Origin: Hyphomicrobiales bacterium
GTDB lineage: Bacteria; Pseudomonadota; Alphaproteobacteria; Rhizobiales; JAJFHB01
DNA length: 6,899 bases
Reading direction: 5' to 3'
Assembly: GCA_021775795.1 (NCBI GenBank)
Contig: JAJFHB010000384.1
Span: 1 to 6,899, forward strand
Part shown: positions 1 to 6,560 of the stretch, piece after piece
Layout: each line of letters starts with the position of its first letter
Position numbering within the stretch: position 1 is the first letter of the stretch
Notes under the pieces: generated by a model
Databases searched by the model: none
Told to the model about the DNA's origin: nothing
Seen by the model: only the letters and a program-made list of their open reading frames with translations
Made by a program: the position numbers and the translations under genes

Positions 1-528
1 GAGGCGCAGAAATTGCTCTACGAAGCCGAAAACGTGCTCACTGACGAGGCTCGCTATCACATCTTCCGTCGCAAGCTTCTCGACCGTGTCGAAGGCATTG
101 TGGCGGCATCCGTCAAGCCGATGGAGAAGATCGAGCAGATCAAAATCATGCAGCTTGACGGCATGAACAGCGGTGGTGGTGGTGACGGACGCAAATCACC
201 CACAGATGAAGTGATCGACAGCGCCCTGCGTTACCGTGTCCAGGCACCGATGGTGGACAGCTTGATGGCGGATCTGGGGATTGAGGGCGGAAACCTGTCG
301 AAGATGACAGGTCTGGTGCGAGAGGCCCGAGATATTCAGTCGATCGCCAAGGAAATGAACAAGTCCCGCGGAGAGGGTGATGGAGGTGACGGTGAAGCGT
401 CGACCGGACAAACCCCTGAAGGCGATCCGCCCGATGGCGGTGGTGACGGTTCCAGCGGTGATTCAGGCGGTGGCTCGGGTGGATCTGGCAGTTCTGGCCG
501 AGGCCGGTCGCGCCGGACAAAGAAGTAG
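1..528 (+). CDS. Flotillin-like protein, C-terminal part (5' end outside window)
   Basis: The reading frame is open from the first base, so this is a 175-residue C-terminal fragment. The first half has the look of flotillin/YqiK-family C-terminal regions: a helical, charged stretch (KLLYEAENVLTDEARYHIF) followed by VKPMEKIEQIKIMQLDGM, close to the VKPMEKI.SIKI element of that family. Flotillins are membrane-associated SPFH scaffolds that organise membrane microdomains; the SPFH domain itself would lie upstream. From about residue 120 the sequence becomes low-complexity Gly/Ser/Asp (GDGGDGE, GGGDGSSGDS, GGGSGGSGSSG) and ends in a basic tip, RGRSRRTKK. The next gene starts 9 bases after the stop, so it is probably co-transcribed with the molybdenum hydroxylase genes. 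Family call is fairly firm; a role in positioning the enzyme at the membrane is inference from context only. Confidence 0.75.
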   Translation, partial: EAQKLLYEAENVLTDEARYHIFRRKLLDRVEGIVAASVKPMEKIEQIKIMQLDGMNSGGGGDGRKSPTDEVIDSALRYRVQAPMVDSLMADLGIEGGNLSKMTGLVREARDIQSIAKEMNKSRGEGDGGDGEASTGQTPEGDPPDGGGDGSSGDSGGGSGGSGSSGRGRSRRTKK

Positions 529-537
529 GGGGTCGGG

Positions 538-975
538 ATGGCGAGAGTATTCGTCTCCACTGTCATCGCAGCGTCCGCCGACAAGGTCTGGGCAAGGGTG
601 CGTGATTTCAACGGCCTGCCAACCTGGCACCCGGGGATCCGGGACAGCCAGATAGAGGCCGGCGAACCTGCGGACAAAGTCGGCTGCATCCGTGATTTCC
701 ACCTGCAGAACGGTGACCGCATCAGGGAGCAGCTGTTGGGCCTGTCCGACTACGACATGTTCTGCACCTACTCGATCCTGGAAAGCCCGATGCCGTTGGA
801 GAATTATGTCTCGACCCTGCGGCTGACACCCATAACGGATGGCGAGCGAACATTTGCCGAGTGGTCGGCAGAGTTCGACTGTGCGATTGAGGTTGAGGAC
901 GATCTGATCGCCGGCATTAGCCAGAATGTTTTCCAGGGTGGCTTTGATTCCCTGAAGCGTCATTTTGGAGGCTGA
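538..975 (+). CDS. SRPBCC (START/Bet v1-like) family protein, first of a tandem pair
   Basis: A 145-residue protein, normal length for a stand-alone SRPBCC fold, a helix-grip barrel with a hydrophobic ligand pocket. It has the usual opening, a beta strand then a helix with VW..VRDFNG (residues about 17-26), followed by W-H-P and a conserved block with VGC.RDFHL and REQLLGLSD, and a C-terminal helix ending GGFDSLKRHFGG. The ATG lies behind a G-rich stretch (GGGGGTCGGG) rather than a classical Shine-Dalgarno. It sits between the flotillin gene and its own paralogue, upstream of the hydroxylase genes. Aerobic CO dehydrogenase clusters encode a related SRPBCC protein, CoxG, reported to tether the enzyme to the membrane. 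A similar tethering or ligand-carrying role is inference. No catalytic residues can be assigned. Confidence 0.85.
   Translation: MARVFVSTVIAASADKVWARVRDFNGLPTWHPGIRDSQIEAGEPADKVGCIRDFHLQNGDRIREQLLGLSDYDMFCTYSILESPMPLENYVSTLRLTPITDGERTFAEWSAEFDCAIEVEDDLIAGISQNVFQGGFDSLKRHFGG
967..971 (+). promoter_or_regulatory. Shine-Dalgarno GGAGG for the second SRPBCC gene
   Basis: GGAGG ends 9 bases before the GTG at 981 and overlaps the end of the preceding gene. It is the reason for choosing a GTG start here. Confidence 0.7.
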
Positions 976-980
976 GCAAC

Positions 981-1445
981 GTGGTCAAAGTGGTCAAAAG
1001 CACCATTCTTGAAGCGCCGGTCGAACAGGTCTGGGACGTGTTGCGCGACTTCAATGGTCACGACCGCTGGCATCCGGCGGTCACCGACAGCACAATTGAG
1101 CGCGGCCAGACGTCGGACCGGGTTGGTTGCGTGCGGCGCTTTCATCTGGCCGACGGCTCGGAACTGCGCGAACAGCTTTTGACCTTGTCGGACATGGAAA
1201 CGGCCTACAGCTATTGCCTCCTCGATACGCCGGTGCCGCTCTTCAACTATGTCTCCCACGTCTCGCTGATACCGGTAACGGACGGTGACCGTACTTTCTG
1301 GCAGTGGCAATCGCGCTTCGACACGCGGCGCGGGGAAGAAGCTGAAATGGAAACGCTCGTGGGTGAAGGGATTTATGCCGCCGGTTTTGAGGCCATTCGC
1401 CGCCACATGGGGCTGGCAAAGCAGGGATCGAGGCAGGAACAATGA
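981..1445 (+). CDS. SRPBCC family protein, second of a tandem pair
   Basis: A 154-residue SRPBCC-fold protein with a GTG start and a good Shine-Dalgarno. It is a paralogue of the preceding gene: an ungapped hand alignment over 145 residues gives about 63 identities (roughly 43 percent), densest in VW..(V/L)RDFNG, WHP, DS.IE.G, VGC.R.FHL, REQLL.LSD and P.TDG.RTF. The C-terminal third is much less similar, and this copy has an extra hydrophilic tail, AKQGSRQEQ. It starts 5 bases after its paralogue and its stop overlaps the next start (ATGA), so it should be translationally coupled to the FAD subunit. Function is unknown beyond the fold; a CoxG-like accessory role or binding of a hydrophobic substrate is inferred from position. 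The two copies may form a heterodimer or have separate ligands. Confidence 0.85.
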   Translation: MVKVVKSTILEAPVEQVWDVLRDFNGHDRWHPAVTDSTIERGQTSDRVGCVRRFHLADGSELREQLLTLSDMETAYSYCLLDTPVPLFNYVSHVSLIPVTDGDRTFWQWQSRFDTRRGEEAEMETLVGEGIYAAGFEAIRRHMGLAKQGSRQEQ

Positions 1446-2263
1446 CGGTAACAGTAACGACATATGAAACCGCCACCGAGGCTGCGCACGCCATTGCTGC
1501 TGGAACTTCGACCCATTTTCTTGGCGGGGGAACGCTGATCATGCGTGCCCTCAATGAGGGAGACCCATCTGTCCGTTCCATCGTGATGACAGGCGATATC
1601 GCGATGAAGCAGATAAGGCCCGCGGGCGCTGGAATGGAGATTGGCGCAGCAGTGACCATGGCGGATATTCTCGGCAGTCACGACCTTGGCTTTCTGCATT
1701 CAGCCGCCAGGGCGGTTGGTGGTCCGGCAATCCGCAATATGGCGACGCTCGGCGGCAATCTGTTCGCCCGCTCGCCTTATGGAGACCTTGCAACAGCACT
1801 GCTTGCTTTAGATGGCGTGGTGGTTCTGGCGAGTGGGGGAGGCATGCGCGAAATGCCATTGTCTGAGTTTCTTGCCGGCCGTGATGGTGTTGCAAAAGGC
1901 GTGGTCGTGAGCGTTCGCGTTTCACGCCCGGCGACGCTGGAAGCTTTTCGCTTTCACAAGGTAAGCCGGGTTCGCCCAAAGCGCATCGCCGTACTCACTC
2001 TTGCCGCCCATCTGCCGATGAACAGCGGTCGCATTACGGGTGCCCGCATTGCCTATGGGGCAATGGCGCCGACGCCAATTCGCGTGCCGGCGGTCGAACA
2101 GGCGCTGGAAGGTGCGAGCCTTGATGAGCAGGGTATCGCACGGGCATTGGCGGTTGCATGTGAGGGCTGCGCACCGGCCAACGACGCCATCGCTTCGGAA
2201 TGGTACCGCCGGGAAGTGACCCCCGTACATCTGAAACGGCTGCTTCTCGGCCAGGCAGCTTAA
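1442..2263 (+). CDS. coxM: Molybdenum hydroxylase FAD-binding subunit (CoxM/XdhB-like)
   Basis: A 273-residue medium subunit, close to the usual length of about 280-290 for CoxM. It takes electrons from the [2Fe-2S] subunit onto FAD and passes them to an acceptor. The two FAD diphosphate-binding loops typical of the family are visible: LGGGT at residues 27-31 and TLGGN at 102-106, within GPAIRNMATLGGNLFARSP. The C-terminal CO-dehydrogenase-flavoprotein domain ends in the standard YRREVTPVHLKRLL helix (255-268). The ATG overlaps the stop of the SRPBCC gene by 4 bases, and a weak AGGA sits only 3 bases upstream, consistent with coupled translation. It is followed 10 bases later by the iron-sulfur subunit, the normal M-S-L order. 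Family assignment is secure. The symbol indicates homology to the CoxM family, not CO oxidation. Confidence 0.93.
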   Translation: MTVTVTTYETATEAAHAIAAGTSTHFLGGGTLIMRALNEGDPSVRSIVMTGDIAMKQIRPAGAGMEIGAAVTMADILGSHDLGFLHSAARAVGGPAIRNMATLGGNLFARSPYGDLATALLALDGVVVLASGGGMREMPLSEFLAGRDGVAKGVVVSVRVSRPATLEAFRFHKVSRVRPKRIAVLTLAAHLPMNSGRITGARIAYGAMAPTPIRVPAVEQALEGASLDEQGIARALAVACEGCAPANDAIASEWYRREVTPVHLKRLLLGQAA

Positions 2264-2273
2264 GGATACGTAC

Positions 2274-2756
2274 ATGAGCAAGAAGCCTCTACAGTTCACG
2301 CTAAATGGCGCAAACAAGGCGGTTTTCGTCGAAGATGGCCAAAACCTGCTTGACGTGCTGCGTCGCGAAGTTGGTGATTTCGCACCAAAATATGGCTGCG
2401 GACAGGGTACCTGCGGGTCGTGCACTGTGCTCATTGACGGCAAGCCGCACCTTTCCTGCCTCACGCTGGCCGAGCGCTCTGAAGGCGCTTCGATAGAGAC
2501 GGCAAGTGGCCTTGCCGACGGGCCGGATCTGCATCCCCTGCAGGATGCGTTCATGGAACATTTTGCGGCCCAGTGTGGCTATTGCACATCGGGCATGTTG
2601 ATGGCCGCCAAGGCTCTTCTTGACCACACACCAACGCCGACCCGCGAAGAAGTTGTGGAAGCGATTGCCGGCAATGTCTGCCGGTGCACCGGGTACGAGC
2701 CCATCATCAACGCCATTCTGGACGCCGCGGCCCGTGGCCGCCGCTTCAGCGCCTGA
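2274..2756 (+). CDS. coxS: Molybdenum hydroxylase [2Fe-2S] subunit (CoxS-like)
   Basis: A 160-residue small subunit, the standard size. It carries electrons from the molybdenum site to the flavin subunit. All eight cluster ligands are present. The N-terminal ferredoxin-type domain has C42, C47, C50 and C62 in the pattern C-x4-C-x2-C-x11-C (CGQGTCGSC). The C-terminal four-helix domain has C101, C104, C136 and C138 (CGYC and CRC), with the usual CRCTGYEPI ending. Gln100 before CGYC is the position that normally contacts the molybdopterin cofactor. An AAGGA precedes the ATG by about 7 bases. No leader peptide is visible, as expected for this cytoplasmic class. Its stop is followed directly by the GAGGAGG that serves the large subunit gene. 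Confidence 0.95.
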   Translation: MSKKPLQFTLNGANKAVFVEDGQNLLDVLRREVGDFAPKYGCGQGTCGSCTVLIDGKPHLSCLTLAERSEGASIETASGLADGPDLHPLQDAFMEHFAAQCGYCTSGMLMAAKALLDHTPTPTREEVVEAIAGNVCRCTGYEPIINAILDAAARGRRFSA

Positions 2757-2767: not shown

Positions 2768-4627
2768 ATGCTTGAGCTTCGCAAAGACATCTTCGCCGAC
2801 GAACGCGACGATAATCTGAATGAAATTGGCAAGCCGACCCAGCGCCAGGACATGTTGGGCCATGTCACCGGACGCACGCGGTATTACGATGATCATGCCT
2901 TTGAAGGCATGCTGCATCTCAAAGTGGTGCGCAGCCCGCATCATCATGCCCGCATTCGCAGCATTGATACGTCTGCTGCTGACCGGCTTCCAGGAGTGCG
3001 CCGCATCATCCAGGCTGCGGATATTCCGGTCAATCTCAACACCCTTTTGAGTCTGATCGAATTTGGCGAAGATGATGAGCCGACACTTGCCGAGGATAAG
3101 GTGCGATACATCGGTGAGCCGGTTGTCGCCGTCGTTGCAGATACAGAGGTCATCGCCATGGCGGCTGTTGCCGCCGTCAGGGTCGACTATGAAGTGCTGC
3201 CTCATGTGCTGGACGTGGAGGAGGCGCTGAAACCCGGCGCGGTATCGGTCAATCCGGTCTACACAAAAAACCATTTTGTCTTCCACGATAGCTACGATCG
3301 CCAGAAAATGCGCTTTGGTGATGTTGAGGCCGGGTTTGCACAAGCAGACCATGTTCTCGAGGCGCGCTACCAGATGTCACCGATTGAACACGCTCCGGTC
3401 GAACCCATGGGCTGTATTGCGGCGCCGGAGACAAACGACCGTATCGTGGTGCACACCTCAACCCAGGCGTTGTTCTTTTCTCTCGGTACCGCTGCAAAGA
3501 TACTCGACATGCCGTCGAACCGGCTCCACTTCATCGGCGGCACGGTTGGTGGCGGCTTTGGTGGTAAAGTTGACTCCCTGACTGAGCCGCTCGCCATCCT
3601 TGCCTGCAAGCTCACCGGAAAACCGGTTCGTTATGGCTTCAATCGCCAGGAGGAGATGCAGGCCGGGCCACCTCGCGGCGCGGAGGTCCACTACATCAAG
3701 GACGGCGTCATGAATGATGGCCGGATCGTCGCGCGCCAGATCCGTTCCTATTTCGATGCCGGCGCCTACACCCGGCTTTCAAGCTACGCCATCATCAAAT
3801 GTACCGGTCATCTGCCGGGCCCCTACACCATCCCCAACGTCAAAACCGACGTGTTTTGTGTTTACACCAACCGCACCCCGGCCACGGCCATGCGCGGATT
3901 CGGCGTTACCGGCGTTGATTTCTCTCTCGAGTGCCATATGGACAAGATGGCGCAATTAGTCGGCATGGATGCGATTGAGTTCCGCATTTTTAATGCTTAC
4001 CGCGATGGCGATATGAAAGCGCACCGGCGTGAAGCAAAAAACACCGCGCTCGTCGAATGTTGCCAGGTTGCGGCTCAAAAGGCGGGCTGGCCGATCCGTG
4101 ACGAGTTTCAGCAAATGTCGTCTCTTCACGGTGGTGGAGGGGAACGCGCAGCGATTCCTTACACCCGCATGGATCAGGAAGGCATCATCGCCGGGATGTC
4201 GGCAGCGCAAGCGCCGCCATCCACGCCAATCCAGGCACCAGCAACAATGGCGCCGGCAATTGCGGCAACTGTTGCAGCACCTCCGCCCGCTCCTGTGGTG
4301 CCACCCGTTCCAACGGTCGCGCAACCACCAGTGGCCACACAATTGCCTCTTGCAGCAACTGCACCGCAAGCACCCCAATCATCTCAGCAACCGCCCGTGG
4401 TCGCGGGTGCGCCTGCGGTTCCGCCGTTATCTCCACCCGCGATGGGGCAGCAGGCAGCACCGCCATCGATACCGACATCACCATCACCATCGATGCAACC
4501 CGCGTCACCCTATACCTCACCCGCTCCGCAAACCGAGGGTTCAGAAGGCTCCAGCCGACCATCTGCATCGCCAAGGCCCGGCACAGTGCGGCACGGATCG
4601 CGGCTGGCCGGCACAAGGAGGCGCTGA
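2768..4627 (+). CDS. coxL: Molybdenum hydroxylase large subunit, N-terminal half with Pro/Ala-rich tail
   Basis: A 619-residue protein; intact large subunits of this family are about 770-800. Residues about 30-155 are the a/b hammerhead domain (RTRYYDDHAFEGMLHLKVVRSP; VRYIGEPVVAVVA). Residues about 170-410 are the first molybdopterin-binding domain, with GGGFGGK at 261-267 and AMRGFG at 374-379. Conserved sequence stops near residue 450 (EFQQMSS). A Gly-rich stretch (HGGGGER) and then a low-complexity Pro/Ala tail follow to residue 619. The second molybdopterin domain and catalytic Glu are missing from this chain and are supplied by the next gene, same frame, 3 bases on. Arg376 matches the substrate-binding Arg of xanthine dehydrogenase (AFRGFG), but Val268 replaces the xanthine dehydrogenase Glu after GGFGGK. 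The AYRCSFR loop of form I CO dehydrogenase is absent. Substrate is therefore unassigned. It should need the C-terminal-half protein to bind cofactor. Confidence 0.88.
   Translation: MLELRKDIFADERDDNLNEIGKPTQRQDMLGHVTGRTRYYDDHAFEGMLHLKVVRSPHHHARIRSIDTSAADRLPGVRRIIQAADIPVNLNTLLSLIEFGEDDEPTLAEDKVRYIGEPVVAVVADTEVIAMAAVAAVRVDYEVLPHVLDVEEALKPGAVSVNPVYTKNHFVFHDSYDRQKMRFGDVEAGFAQADHVLEARYQMSPIEHAPVEPMGCIAAPETNDRIVVHTSTQALFFSLGTAAKILDMPSNRLHFIGGTVGGGFGGKVDSLTEPLAILACKLTGKPVRYGFNRQEEMQAGPPRGAEVHYIKDGVMNDGRIVARQIRSYFDAGAYTRLSSYAIIKCTGHLPGPYTIPNVKTDVFCVYTNRTPATAMRGFGVTGVDFSLECHMDKMAQLVGMDAIEFRIFNAYRDGDMKAHRREAKNTALVECCQVAAQKAGWPIRDEFQQMSSLHGGGGERAAIPYTRMDQEGIIAGMSAAQAPPSTPIQAPATMAPAIAATVAAPPPAPVVPPVPTVAQPPVATQLPLAATAPQAPQSSQQPPVVAGAPAVPPLSPPAMGQQAAPPSIPTSPSPSMQPASPYTSPAPQTEGSEGSSRPSASPRPGTVRHGSRLAGTRRR
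4202..4624 (+). other. Pro/Ala-rich disordered tail of the large-subunit N-half
   Basis: This encodes residues 479-619 of the large-subunit N-half. By hand count it contains 36 Pro and 28 Ala in 141 residues, with many Gln, Ser, Thr and Val, no Asp or Lys, and only two Glu (near TEGSEGS). The last 20 residues turn basic, ending GTRRR. Synonymous codons for Pro and Ala are mixed, so this is not a simple DNA tandem repeat. On the + strand it is C-rich: about 147 C to 86 G over 4201-4560. It sits between the two molybdopterin domains and has no counterpart in intact large subunits that I recall. Likely an extended, flexible segment. Function unknown. Confidence 0.75.
4615..4621 (+). promoter_or_regulatory. 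Shine-Dalgarno AAGGAGG for the large-subunit C-half
   Basis: A full-strength AAGGAGG ends 9 bases before the ATG at 4631. It lies within the codons for the last residues (T-R-R-R) of the N-half protein. It is among the strongest ribosome binding sites in the window and supports independent or coupled initiation of the second half rather than an accidental stop within one gene. Confidence 0.85.
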
Positions 4628-4630
4628 TCC

Positions 4631-5668
4631 ATGACGAAGCATCGCGGCAGAGGTGTTGCCTCAATCAACTATCCCATCGGTATGAACCTGGGTGGCGATC
4701 CCAGCCAGGCCCTCGTGCACTCAAATCCTGACGGCAAATTCACTGTTGCCTTGTCCTCGATCGACCTTGGACAAGGCATGAAGTCGGTAACCCGGCAGAT
4801 CGCAGCCGAGACTCTGGGTGTGCCGGTGGAGGACGTCTATGTCGACACAGCAGACAGTGATATTGGCCCCCACTGTATGGGCAGCTTCGCCTCTCGTGGC
4901 ACGCACCGGGTGGGAAACGCTGTAATCGCTGCTGCAAAAGAAGCGCGCGGCGTCTTGCTGGATGCAGCAGCGGAAGAGCTGGAGGTTAATGCTCAGGATC
5001 TCGAAACCGATGGCAAGGGCAACATTCACGTTCGCGGCGCGCCTCAGCGGTCCATCACCGTGCGTGATGTGTCCATAGCCGCCCAGTTCAGACAGGGGCG
5101 TACAATATCCGGCCGTGGCATCTTTCTCATACCGCTCTCGGACGTGAACCCTGAAACCGGCGAGATGTCGCCCGTATCCTGTTATGCCCACGCCTGCCTT
5201 GTGGTCGATGTCGAAGTCGACGATGAAACCGGCGTGGTTGATGTTCTGCAAATGAACAGTGCATATGAACTCGGACGGGCGCTCAACCCGAAGCTTGTGG
5301 AACAGCAGCTTGTTGGTGGTGCCTGGATGGGCATGAGCCATGCGCTTTATGAAACCACCGAACCTTATTATCCGGACCGCGCACATGCCCCAAATGATTT
5401 CAACGACTACGTCATGCCCGGCCCGGGAGACATTGCCGAACACAACATAGCAGTGCTCGAGCGCCCGGCGCCCGATGGCCCCTTTGGTGGCAAGGGGCCT
5501 GGAGAAATGTGTGCAAACCCGGTTTTGCCCGCAGTGGCGAACGCTGTCTTCAACGCCGTTGGGGTGCGCGTCGATGACCTCCCCATTTCTCCTGAAAAAG
5601 TCCTGCGCGGTATTAAGGACCAGGGCGGTGCCCGGCCTATGCCCACTCCCGGACAGGCGGGGGCTTGA
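4631..5668 (+). CDS. coxL: Molybdenum hydroxylase large subunit, C-terminal half (second molybdopterin domain)
   Basis: A 345-residue protein matching only the C-terminal half of a xanthine dehydrogenase-family large subunit. It begins MTKHRGRGVASINYP, the segment that opens the second molybdopterin-binding domain in intact proteins. DLGQG at residues 45-49 is the cofactor-binding Gly-Gln-Gly motif. SFASRGTHRVGNA (about 82-94) is the following cofactor loop. GGKGPGEM holds Glu292, the equivalent of the catalytic base (Glu1261 of bovine xanthine oxidase, Glu763 of CoxL). The start is supported by AAGGAGG upstream. It is in the same frame as the preceding half, separated by TGA-TCC. It lacks the hammerhead and first molybdopterin domains, so on its own it cannot be a complete subunit. 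Both halves look intact and under selection. I infer a heterodimeric large subunit; a read-through fusion of 966 residues is the alternative. Confidence 0.9.
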   Translation: MTKHRGRGVASINYPIGMNLGGDPSQALVHSNPDGKFTVALSSIDLGQGMKSVTRQIAAETLGVPVEDVYVDTADSDIGPHCMGSFASRGTHRVGNAVIAAAKEARGVLLDAAAEELEVNAQDLETDGKGNIHVRGAPQRSITVRDVSIAAQFRQGRTISGRGIFLIPLSDVNPETGEMSPVSCYAHACLVVDVEVDDETGVVDVLQMNSAYELGRALNPKLVEQQLVGGAWMGMSHALYETTEPYYPDRAHAPNDFNDYVMPGPGDIAEHNIAVLERPAPDGPFGGKGPGEMCANPVLPAVANAVFNAVGVRVDDLPISPEKVLRGIKDQGGARPMPTPGQAGA

Positions 5669-5678
5669 GGCAGGCAGG

Positions 5679-6560
5679 ATGGCGGTCAGGCGCAAAATAG
5701 TCGGGATCGACGGGCCGGAAACGCTGCATGCCGCGTTGCGGTCGGCGCAGTATCTCGCCGACGATGCGCTCGCTACGGCGGCTTACCTCGCCTTGGCGCT
5801 TGGCAAGCCCTTGTTGCTGGAAGGCATGCCCGGTGTCGGTAAGACCGAGGCTGCAAAGGCTTTGTCATCGGTACTGGGGCGGCAGCTCATCCGCCTGCAG
5901 TGTTACGAGGGCATTGATGCAGCGAATGCCATTTACGAATGGAATTATCCCCGCCAGATGCTGGCAATCCGCCAGGCCGGGGAAGAACAGGTCGACATCT
6001 ATCGCGATGAGTTTCTTATCGAACGGCCGATGTTGGCGGCACTTAAGGCACCGCAACGGGTGACCCTGCTGATTGACGAAATCGACCGCTCGGATCATGA
6101 GTTTGAAGCTCTGCTGCTGGAGTTTCTCTCGGACTTTCAGATCTCTATTCCCGAGCGTGGCACCATTCGCGCAACAGAACACCCGGTCGTTGTCTTGACC
6201 TCCAACCGGACGCGGGAACTTCACGAGGCATTGCGCCGCCGCTGTGTTTATCACTGGATTGACTACCCCGAGCCGGAGATGGAAGCGCAGATTGTCATGA
6301 TGCGCGCGAGTTCTGTGGCGGAAGCCACAGCCCATGCCGTTGTCGCGGCTGTCGGCCGTCTCCGCCAGGAACCGTTGGCCAAGCTTCCCGGTGTGGCTGA
6401 AACGGTTGAATGGGCGGAGGCTGCCACGCTTTTGAATGAACAGGGTGTGGCCTGGCCCGATGCCTTCAAGAGGGCGATTGGCGTGGCTGTGAAGGTTGAA
6501 GAAGATCTTGCACATGTATCGGAACGGATCGACACGATTGTTCCAGGAGTTGCGGCATGA
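5679..6560 (+). CDS. coxD: MoxR-family AAA+ ATPase, CoxD-like
   Basis: A 293-residue AAA+ ATPase, the same size as CoxD of Oligotropha (about 295). Walker A is GMPGVGKT at residues 49-56, Walker B is LLIDEID at 130-136, sensor 1 lies in TSNRTRE (174-180), and the Arg-rich LRRRC (185-189) holds a likely arginine finger. CYEGIDAANAIYEWNYPRQM after Walker A is characteristic of the CoxD branch of MoxR ATPases. In CO dehydrogenase, CoxD acts as an ATP-dependent chaperone needed for introducing sulfur and copper at the Mo centre; here it presumably helps mature this hydroxylase. The ATG at 5679 is chosen, with GAGG about 8 bases upstream, because upstream in-frame starts lie inside the large-subunit gene. 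The gap from the large-subunit C-half is 10 bases, and the stop overlaps the next start. Confidence 0.93.
   Translation: MAVRRKIVGIDGPETLHAALRSAQYLADDALATAAYLALALGKPLLLEGMPGVGKTEAAKALSSVLGRQLIRLQCYEGIDAANAIYEWNYPRQMLAIRQAGEEQVDIYRDEFLIERPMLAALKAPQRVTLLIDEIDRSDHEFEALLLEFLSDFQISIPERGTIRATEHPVVVLTSNRTRELHEALRRRCVYHWIDYPEPEMEAQIVMMRASSVAEATAHAVVAAVGRLRQEPLAKLPGVAETVEWAEAATLLNEQGVAWPDAFKRAIGVAVKVEEDLAHVSERIDTIVPGVAA

Follow-up and report, generated by a model that had tools for sequence, protein, structure and literature searches.

A molybdenum hydroxylase with a two-protein large subunit, a conserved terminal peptide and a linked flotillin gene

The stretch of DNA considered here, called the window, is a whole contig of 6,899 nucleotides (JAJFHB010000384.1) from the draft genome of a Hyphomicrobiales bacterium (GCA_021775795.1), which comprises 3.63 Mb in 705 contigs and is 71% complete. 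It carries part of an operon for a molybdenum hydroxylase of the xanthine oxidase family, the large subunit of which is encoded by two adjacent genes: L(N), for the hammerhead and first molybdopterin domain, and L(C), for the second molybdopterin domain (Table 1). From comparisons of sequence we show that this split is conserved, that L(N) carries a long tail with a terminal peptide conserved at the protein level, and that a flotillin gene is linked to the tailed form in every locus where it could be read. The tailed, two-gene form is widespread, being encoded by many alphaproteobacteria. A split large subunit is known already; the tail, the terminal peptide and the flotillin link appear to be new.

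Table 1. Features of the window
Feature	Position	Strand	Evidence and remarks
Flotillin (SPFH), C-terminal part only	13..528	+	Pfam Flot PF15975, 4.6e-25; contig starts inside gene
SRPBCC protein 1 (CoxG-like superfamily)	538..975	+	Pfam Polyketide_cyc2, 1.7e-27
SRPBCC protein 2, GTG start	981..1445	+	Pfam Polyketide_cyc2, 1.9e-22
M subunit, FAD-binding	1442..2263	+	FAD_binding_5, CO_deh_flav_C
S subunit, two [2Fe-2S]	2274..2756	+	Fer2, Fer2_2
L(N): hammerhead and first molybdopterin domain (residues 1-452), tail (453-619)	2768..4627	+	Pfam; homology to 3hrd_A NdhL, 1.1e-60, residues 20-439
L(N) Pro/Ala-rich tail, 167 residues (453-619)	4124..4624	+	25% Pro, 20% Ala; AlphaFold pLDDT ~26-52
L(N) C-terminal peptide RHGSRLAGTRRR; family consensus RFSSxxGxRRR	4589..4624	+	window keeps S, G, T, RRR; without F
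AAGGAGG, Shine-Dalgarno of L(C), overlapping terminal Arg codons of L(N)	4615..4621	+	
TGA stop dividing the halves	4625..4627	+	split position conserved
L(C): second molybdopterin domain, catalytic Glu in GPGE	4631..5668	+	MoCoBD_2, 8.2e-59; 3hrd_B NdhM, 2.1e-51
MoxR-type AAA+ ATPase (CoxD-like)	5679..6560	+	AAA/AAA_5; NF047784 267.6 bits, under cut-off 475
VWA (CoxE-like) protein, truncated by contig end	6557..6899	+	tblastn match to the VWA protein of locus L026, itself VWA_CoxE, 1.1e-41

The divided large subunit and its conservation

All four proteins of the enzyme gave Pfam matches above cut-off: the hammerhead (Ald_Xan_dh_C, residues 34-145) and MoCoBD_1 (179-409) in L(N), MoCoBD_2 (3-268) in L(C), and the domains of the M and S subunits, a combination which identifies a molybdenum hydroxylase. 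The motifs GGGFGGK (residue 261) and AMRGFG (374) of the 619-residue L(N), and DLGQG (45) and GPGE (289) of the 345-residue L(C), are all intact. We take the glutamate of GPGE, the glutamine of DLGQG and the two L(N) motifs to have the catalytic or cofactor-contacting roles that they have elsewhere in the family, and the glutamate is unchanged in all 14 aligned rows, among which are fused chains. A sequence-only reading of the window had described a naturally occurring break between the molybdopterin domains with motifs intact in both halves, the order M-S-L(N)-L(C), and AAGGAGG nine bases ahead of the second ATG. These observations stand, the last of them exactly, and the arrangement recurs in relatives; the same reading had overlooked the conserved tail, the terminal peptide and the accompanying flotillin.

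The novelty that it implied for the split does not survive comparison with nicotinate dehydrogenase of Eubacterium barkeri (NdhFSLM; PDB 3HRD), which likewise has four subunits and a molybdopterin subunit split between the molybdopterin domains; a split large subunit in nicotinate dehydrogenase is also covered in a review (PMC10331938). Chains A and B of 3HRD are the best solved match for both window halves, with the alignments ending and starting at the same boundary. NdhL, however, has 425 residues and is without the long tail of the window protein, and a molybdenum-selenium centre and nicotinate as substrate are features of the E. barkeri enzyme. In a tree of 28 rows, limited by its long-branch rows, NdhLM joins the split family with support of only 41/43, which makes a shared origin of the two splits no more than a possibility. 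Two other enzymes share features with the window. 4-Hydroxybenzoyl-CoA reductase (PDB 1RM6) gives the best NCBIfam score for L(C) and the best fold match for a model that reads through the stop, but its alpha subunit is a single chain, and against the full-chain cut-off of 994.55 bits for TIGR03194, the model of that enzyme, the halves score 267.4 and 212 bits, their sum also being far below. The cox cluster of molybdenum-containing CO dehydrogenase (coxMSLDEFG) shares the M, S, L order and genes for AAA+ (CoxD), VWA (CoxE) and SRPBCC (CoxG) proteins, although CoxL is fused and the halves reach only 157.9 and 110.7 bits against the full-chain cut-off of 991.15 for TIGR02416, again with a sum far below it. 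The AMRGFG of the window presumably replaces the form I active-site loop of that dehydrogenase.

From the window itself, the stop at 4625 could be a sequencing error or a strain mutation, since the two open reading frames share a frame, with TGA-TCC between them, and the assembly is a fragmented draft. The chance of this is negligible, and it is ruled out by the recurrence of the split and by the frames of the relatives: where L(N) is complete, the halves lie in the same frame in 19 of 99 loci and in different frames in 80. A scan of genome contigs returned 339 relatives of L(C), of which the best 80 were kept, a sample that leans to close kin; the large subunit is split in all 76 of these loci with both halves, and in the remaining four the contig starts 73-179 nt ahead of L(C). 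In 61 related genomes, 10 besides the window's own matched at an E value of 1e-60 or better, and all nine that hold the N half have it as a separate protein. A search of 398 genomes from the phylum gave matches at 1e-50 in 17, and every place with at least 69% identity is split (the window, L011 and L108-L121, the last group in 14 cases out of 14); the fused large subunits found there (L122, L123) are only 38-39% identical, and the genome searches showed no fused relative above 39% identity. The spacing between halves is -8 to 24 nt, bar five tailed loci (177-1563 nt) and the broken locus described below. Four of five matches in a plasmid collection are also split (L103, L104, L106 and L107), and two of these, from an actinobacterium (L106, Nonomuraea) and a haloarchaeon (L107, Salinigranum), show the same split without a tail. 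As all readable loci of related genomes have it, the split is not due to chance but, judged at the level of sequence, is real, natural and conserved.

The sequence-only reading had named close relatives with one uninterrupted chain as the observation that would tell against it, and the genomes favour the split, bar two frame-shifted protein records. A protein search scored 7999 candidates, 3696 of them at 1e-20, and 120 were listed under length limits that exclude full-length fused chains; ten longer records among these 120 were opened. In P0004 (86%) and P0069 (85%) the end of the N half runs into L(C), but the tail is read in a different frame, which turns the terminal motif into something like LLFRLRHQEAL. 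We have taken these as frame shifts, each in one record, and not as ancestral fusions. The other eight consist of L(C) with out-of-frame or foreign-looking extensions.

Some single records deserve mention. The fifth plasmid match (L105, Sinorhizobium sp. BG8) has an N half broken by a frame change at ~7631-8765 and a stop ~236 nt before the C half, and is either a decayed copy or a sequencing error. P0040, in which an apparent universal-stress-like domain (judged by eye) is joined to an out-of-frame tail and L(C), is probably chimeric or misjoined. The C-half match of L119 (genome G177) contains two in-frame TGA codons, which are found in none of L117, L118 and L120 of the same genus. L061, from a record named Frankia sp. 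RB7, is 98% identical in L(N) and 99% in L(C) to Bradyrhizobium rifense (L062), so the name or the assembly of that record may be wrong.

The tail and its terminal peptide

L(N) occurs with and without a tail. Tail-less proteins (L099, L106, L107, L117-L121 and L124-L127) have 446-460 residues and stop 5-9 residues beyond the enzyme core, whilst tailed ones extend 71-178 residues beyond it, with 29% proline and 16% alanine. A tail is present in 84 of the 93 unique pairs of L(N) and L(C), and all 84 end in RRR, the property by which the tailed set was defined; no pair has a tail of more than nine residues without it. Numbering back from the C-terminus, the glycine at -5 and the serine at -8 are each present in 80 of the 84, and the arginine at -11 and phenylalanine at -10 in 76 each. 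Across 25 diverse loci, linker columns from -40 to -17 hold ~1.1-2.7 bits each, the motif columns from -11 to -8 ~3.3-3.6 bits, and RRR 4.32. The residues are encoded by varied synonymous codons (CGC, CGG, CGT, CGA and AGG for Arg(-11), all four TCN for Ser(-9) and all four GGN for Gly(-5)), and therefore it is the protein sequence that is under selection. The peptide has a basic character and contains one or two aromatic residues. In the 28-row tree the tailed rows form a single clade (100/100) nested within the 19-row split family (100/100), and the tail is therefore derived.

The tail is predicted to be disordered. An AlphaFold model of L(N) alone (28 rows; modest, with a mean predicted local distance difference test, pLDDT, of 63.8) has a folded core, with the tail and peptide at ~26-52 and not docked. 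When the stop is read through (14 rows, mean 66.8), the two halves fold together into a single large subunit and the tail, at ~26-42, once more stays unfolded; the Foldseek match of this model to 4-hydroxybenzoyl-CoA reductase has a template modelling (TM) score of 0.84 by target length and a root-mean-square deviation of 6.9.

The last codons of the conserved peptide double as the Shine-Dalgarno sequence of the next gene. The RRR codons of the window, AGG AGG CGC (4616-4624), overlap that of L(C), and Shine-Dalgarno-like bases lie in the last 12 nt of L(N) in 75 of 75 tailed loci with halves at most 4 nt apart. This might suggest that the three arginines merely mirror a strong Shine-Dalgarno sequence (AGGAGG) and that the tail is the drift of a former linker. 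Natural cases separate the two roles, however. The five loci with halves 177-1563 nt apart all keep RRR (L036, CGG-AGG-CGA; L073, CGT-CGT-CGG; L082, AGG-CGG-CGG; L092, CGA-CGA-CGA; L093, AGG-AGG-CGG), and L073, L082 and L092 do so with none of the three Shine-Dalgarno-like 5-mers tested in the last 12 nt, whilst L036 and L093 keep one. Furthermore, RFSSxxG is conserved upstream of the Shine-Dalgarno sequence with its varied codons. The by-product explanation is highly improbable, being contradicted by the distant halves and the codon variety. In L073 the two halves are separated by a gene for an EamA-type transporter (3531-5093).

The flotillin gene and the operon

In tailed loci the genes follow a common order: flotillin, SRPBCC1, SRPBCC2, FAD subunit, FeS subunit, L(N), L(C), AAA+, VWA, amidohydrolase, metallo-beta-lactamase (MBL)-fold lactonase and SMP30-isochorismatase, as read from tblastn matches, Pfam matches in L026 and L104, and the annotation of a Yoonia plasmid. 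Neighbours were counted around 89 distinct L(C) sequences (80 tailed and 9 tail-less) and scored only where there was enough flank. With at least 2.5 kb upstream, a flotillin gene precedes 78 of 78 tailed loci compared with none of 8 tail-less ones; it lies on the same strand, and its match ends ~50-350 bases before SRPBCC1. The two other tailed loci, L048 and L073, reach the contig end and were not scored. The MBL-fold gene is found in 69 of 73 tailed and 0 of 8 tail-less loci, and SMP30 in 11 of 11 and 0 of 8, its absence being scored only with 6 kb downstream (19 of the 89 loci). Other neighbours occur with both forms: SRPBCC1 in 79/80 tailed and 6/8 tail-less loci, AAA in 80/80 and 8/9, VWA in 75/76 and 7/8, and the amidohydrolase in 72/74 and 7/8.

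The flotillin of L104 has Band_7 and Flot domains and an N-terminal membrane segment, and so qualifies as an SPFH protein. A hydrophobic N-terminal segment, with a 19-residue Kyte-Doolittle mean of 2.8-3.3 from start codons that we chose, is found in 11 of 11 tailed stretches with the N-terminus (L101-L104, L128-L133 and L164); the flotillin of L100 is cut. These features are shared with bacterial flotillins in general. The operon's flotillin differs from them in heading this operon in every tailed locus read and in its very long Ala/Glu/Arg-rich repeats, and it scores 23.4 bits with the FloT model against a cut-off of 700. When its N-terminal 200 residues were searched against the 61 genomes, 20 places in 14 genomes matched at 1e-30. 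Every one of the nine closest (66-77%) comes from a genome with L(C), the two lying on different contigs in G027, and the tail-less genome G018 gave no match at this threshold. The window's genome is also without a match in this search, as the contig begins inside its flotillin gene.

A possible tether, and other partners for the peptide

We propose that in this hydroxylase with its two-protein large subunit the conserved peptide at the end of the disordered L(N) tail may tether the assembled enzyme to the operon's membrane-anchored flotillin. We hold this tentatively, its chance being a little short of even. By analogy with NdhL and NdhM in 3HRD, a solved precedent for the heterodimeric large subunit that the sequence-only reading had proposed, the two halves would pair around one molybdopterin. 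A fused chain has no C-terminus at the domain boundary; ending L(N) at that point would create one, and from this new end the tail would have grown. The terminal peptide could then dock on a flotillin cage, or on a partner on the cage, and so, for the delivery of electrons, hold the enzyme close to both CoxG-like SRPBCC proteins and to the quinone pool. CoxG binds quinone, and by analogy the SRPBCC proteins might help to pass electrons to quinone. The Shine-Dalgarno sequence inside the arginine codons would couple translation of L(N) and L(C). There is a precedent in CoxG of O. carboxidovorans, which is proposed to recruit its enzyme to the membrane (PMC4240915). Among the open-licence papers listed we found none that ties flotillin to a molybdenum hydroxylase, or that deals with the tail or a proline-rich extension.

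At the seam of the active site, splitting may thus have left a free C-terminal end which became a flotillin-docking tail, a disordered arm tethering a redox enzyme to a dedicated flotillin cage, with the peptide and its partner's ribosome-binding site written in the same bases; we put this fuller scheme forward as speculative, and rather doubtful as a whole. If the tether is real, a bacterial flotillin, from a scaffold family with clients that are hard to define, would have a client linked to it genetically and a short peptide as the candidate for docking, and there would be an explanation of why the enzyme stays split. A counter-site for the basic peptide is possibly provided by the C-termini of the flotillins. 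In the window (13-528) and in L128, L132 and L164 these are low-complexity stretches rich in glycine, serine and acidic residues, often with basic last residues.

Other partners for the peptide have to be weighed. It could act as an assembly clasp within the enzyme, binding L(C) or the M and S subunits and holding the halves together, for the tail begins at the broken domain junction adjoining L(C), and L(C) is the next gene, the Shine-Dalgarno sequence of which is contained in L(N) in 75 of the 84 tailed pairs. However, the tail-less clade has both halves without the peptide, and the tail did not dock in the read-through model; the latter is weak evidence because the peptide was there artificially joined to L(C). 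On balance we consider the clasp unlikely. Somewhat better placed, though still improbable, is another partner gained alongside the tail, whether the SRPBCC, MBL-fold lactonase or SMP30-isochorismatase proteins in a metabolon, or lipid head groups contacted through phenylalanine and arginine. The distribution of the MBL-fold and SMP30 genes largely matches that of the tail, and the basic peptide with its aromatic residues would suit such contacts. Nevertheless, SRPBCC homologues are also present in most tail-less loci, and we could find no MBL gene in two loci of Shinella zoogloeoides, L077 and L103, where tail and flotillin are both present. AAA+ chaperones often engage disordered tails, and the MoxR/VWA maturation pair (CoxD/CoxE-like) is encoded in nearly all tailed loci, which would fit a recognition tag for that pair. 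Since both genes occur with and without the tail, it is not simply their tag, and we regard this explanation as very unlikely.

Several observations weigh against a tether to flotillin. The contact between tail and flotillin is putative. The tail, the flotillin, the MBL lactonase and SMP30 all follow one branch, and since the tail arose once on the tree their association counts as one correlated event, not 78. The window itself makes a weaker case than its relatives: its peptide, RHGSRLAGTRRR, matches 6 of 11 consensus positions and is without the conserved phenylalanine, and only the C-terminal part of its flotillin, with the Flot domain, is on the contig. P0004 and P0069, if they are not sequencing errors, are without the terminal peptide. 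The 11 other flotillin places in the N-terminal search (38-57%) are paralogues, and in 10 of these, which were fetched, the stretches hold neither L(N) nor L(C). Finally, in G052 (L154, 9330-13518, minus strand) a flotillin, SRPBCC1 and an SRPBCC2 fused to a zinc-binding dehydrogenase domain stand in a 15 kb stretch with no match to L(N) or L(C), so that the flotillin-SRPBCC module needs no such tail; the module appears to be common to different redox enzymes.

With regard to the reaction catalysed, the NCBIfam names MadB and MadC could not be traced in papers, and the lactonase-like and isochorismatase genes score under curated cut-offs; as a weak inference from these downstream genes, the product may be a lactone- or amide-like ring compound. 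The last gene of the operon in L026 (10960-12612) and its relatives encodes a fusion of an SMP30/gluconolactonase domain with an isochorismatase domain.

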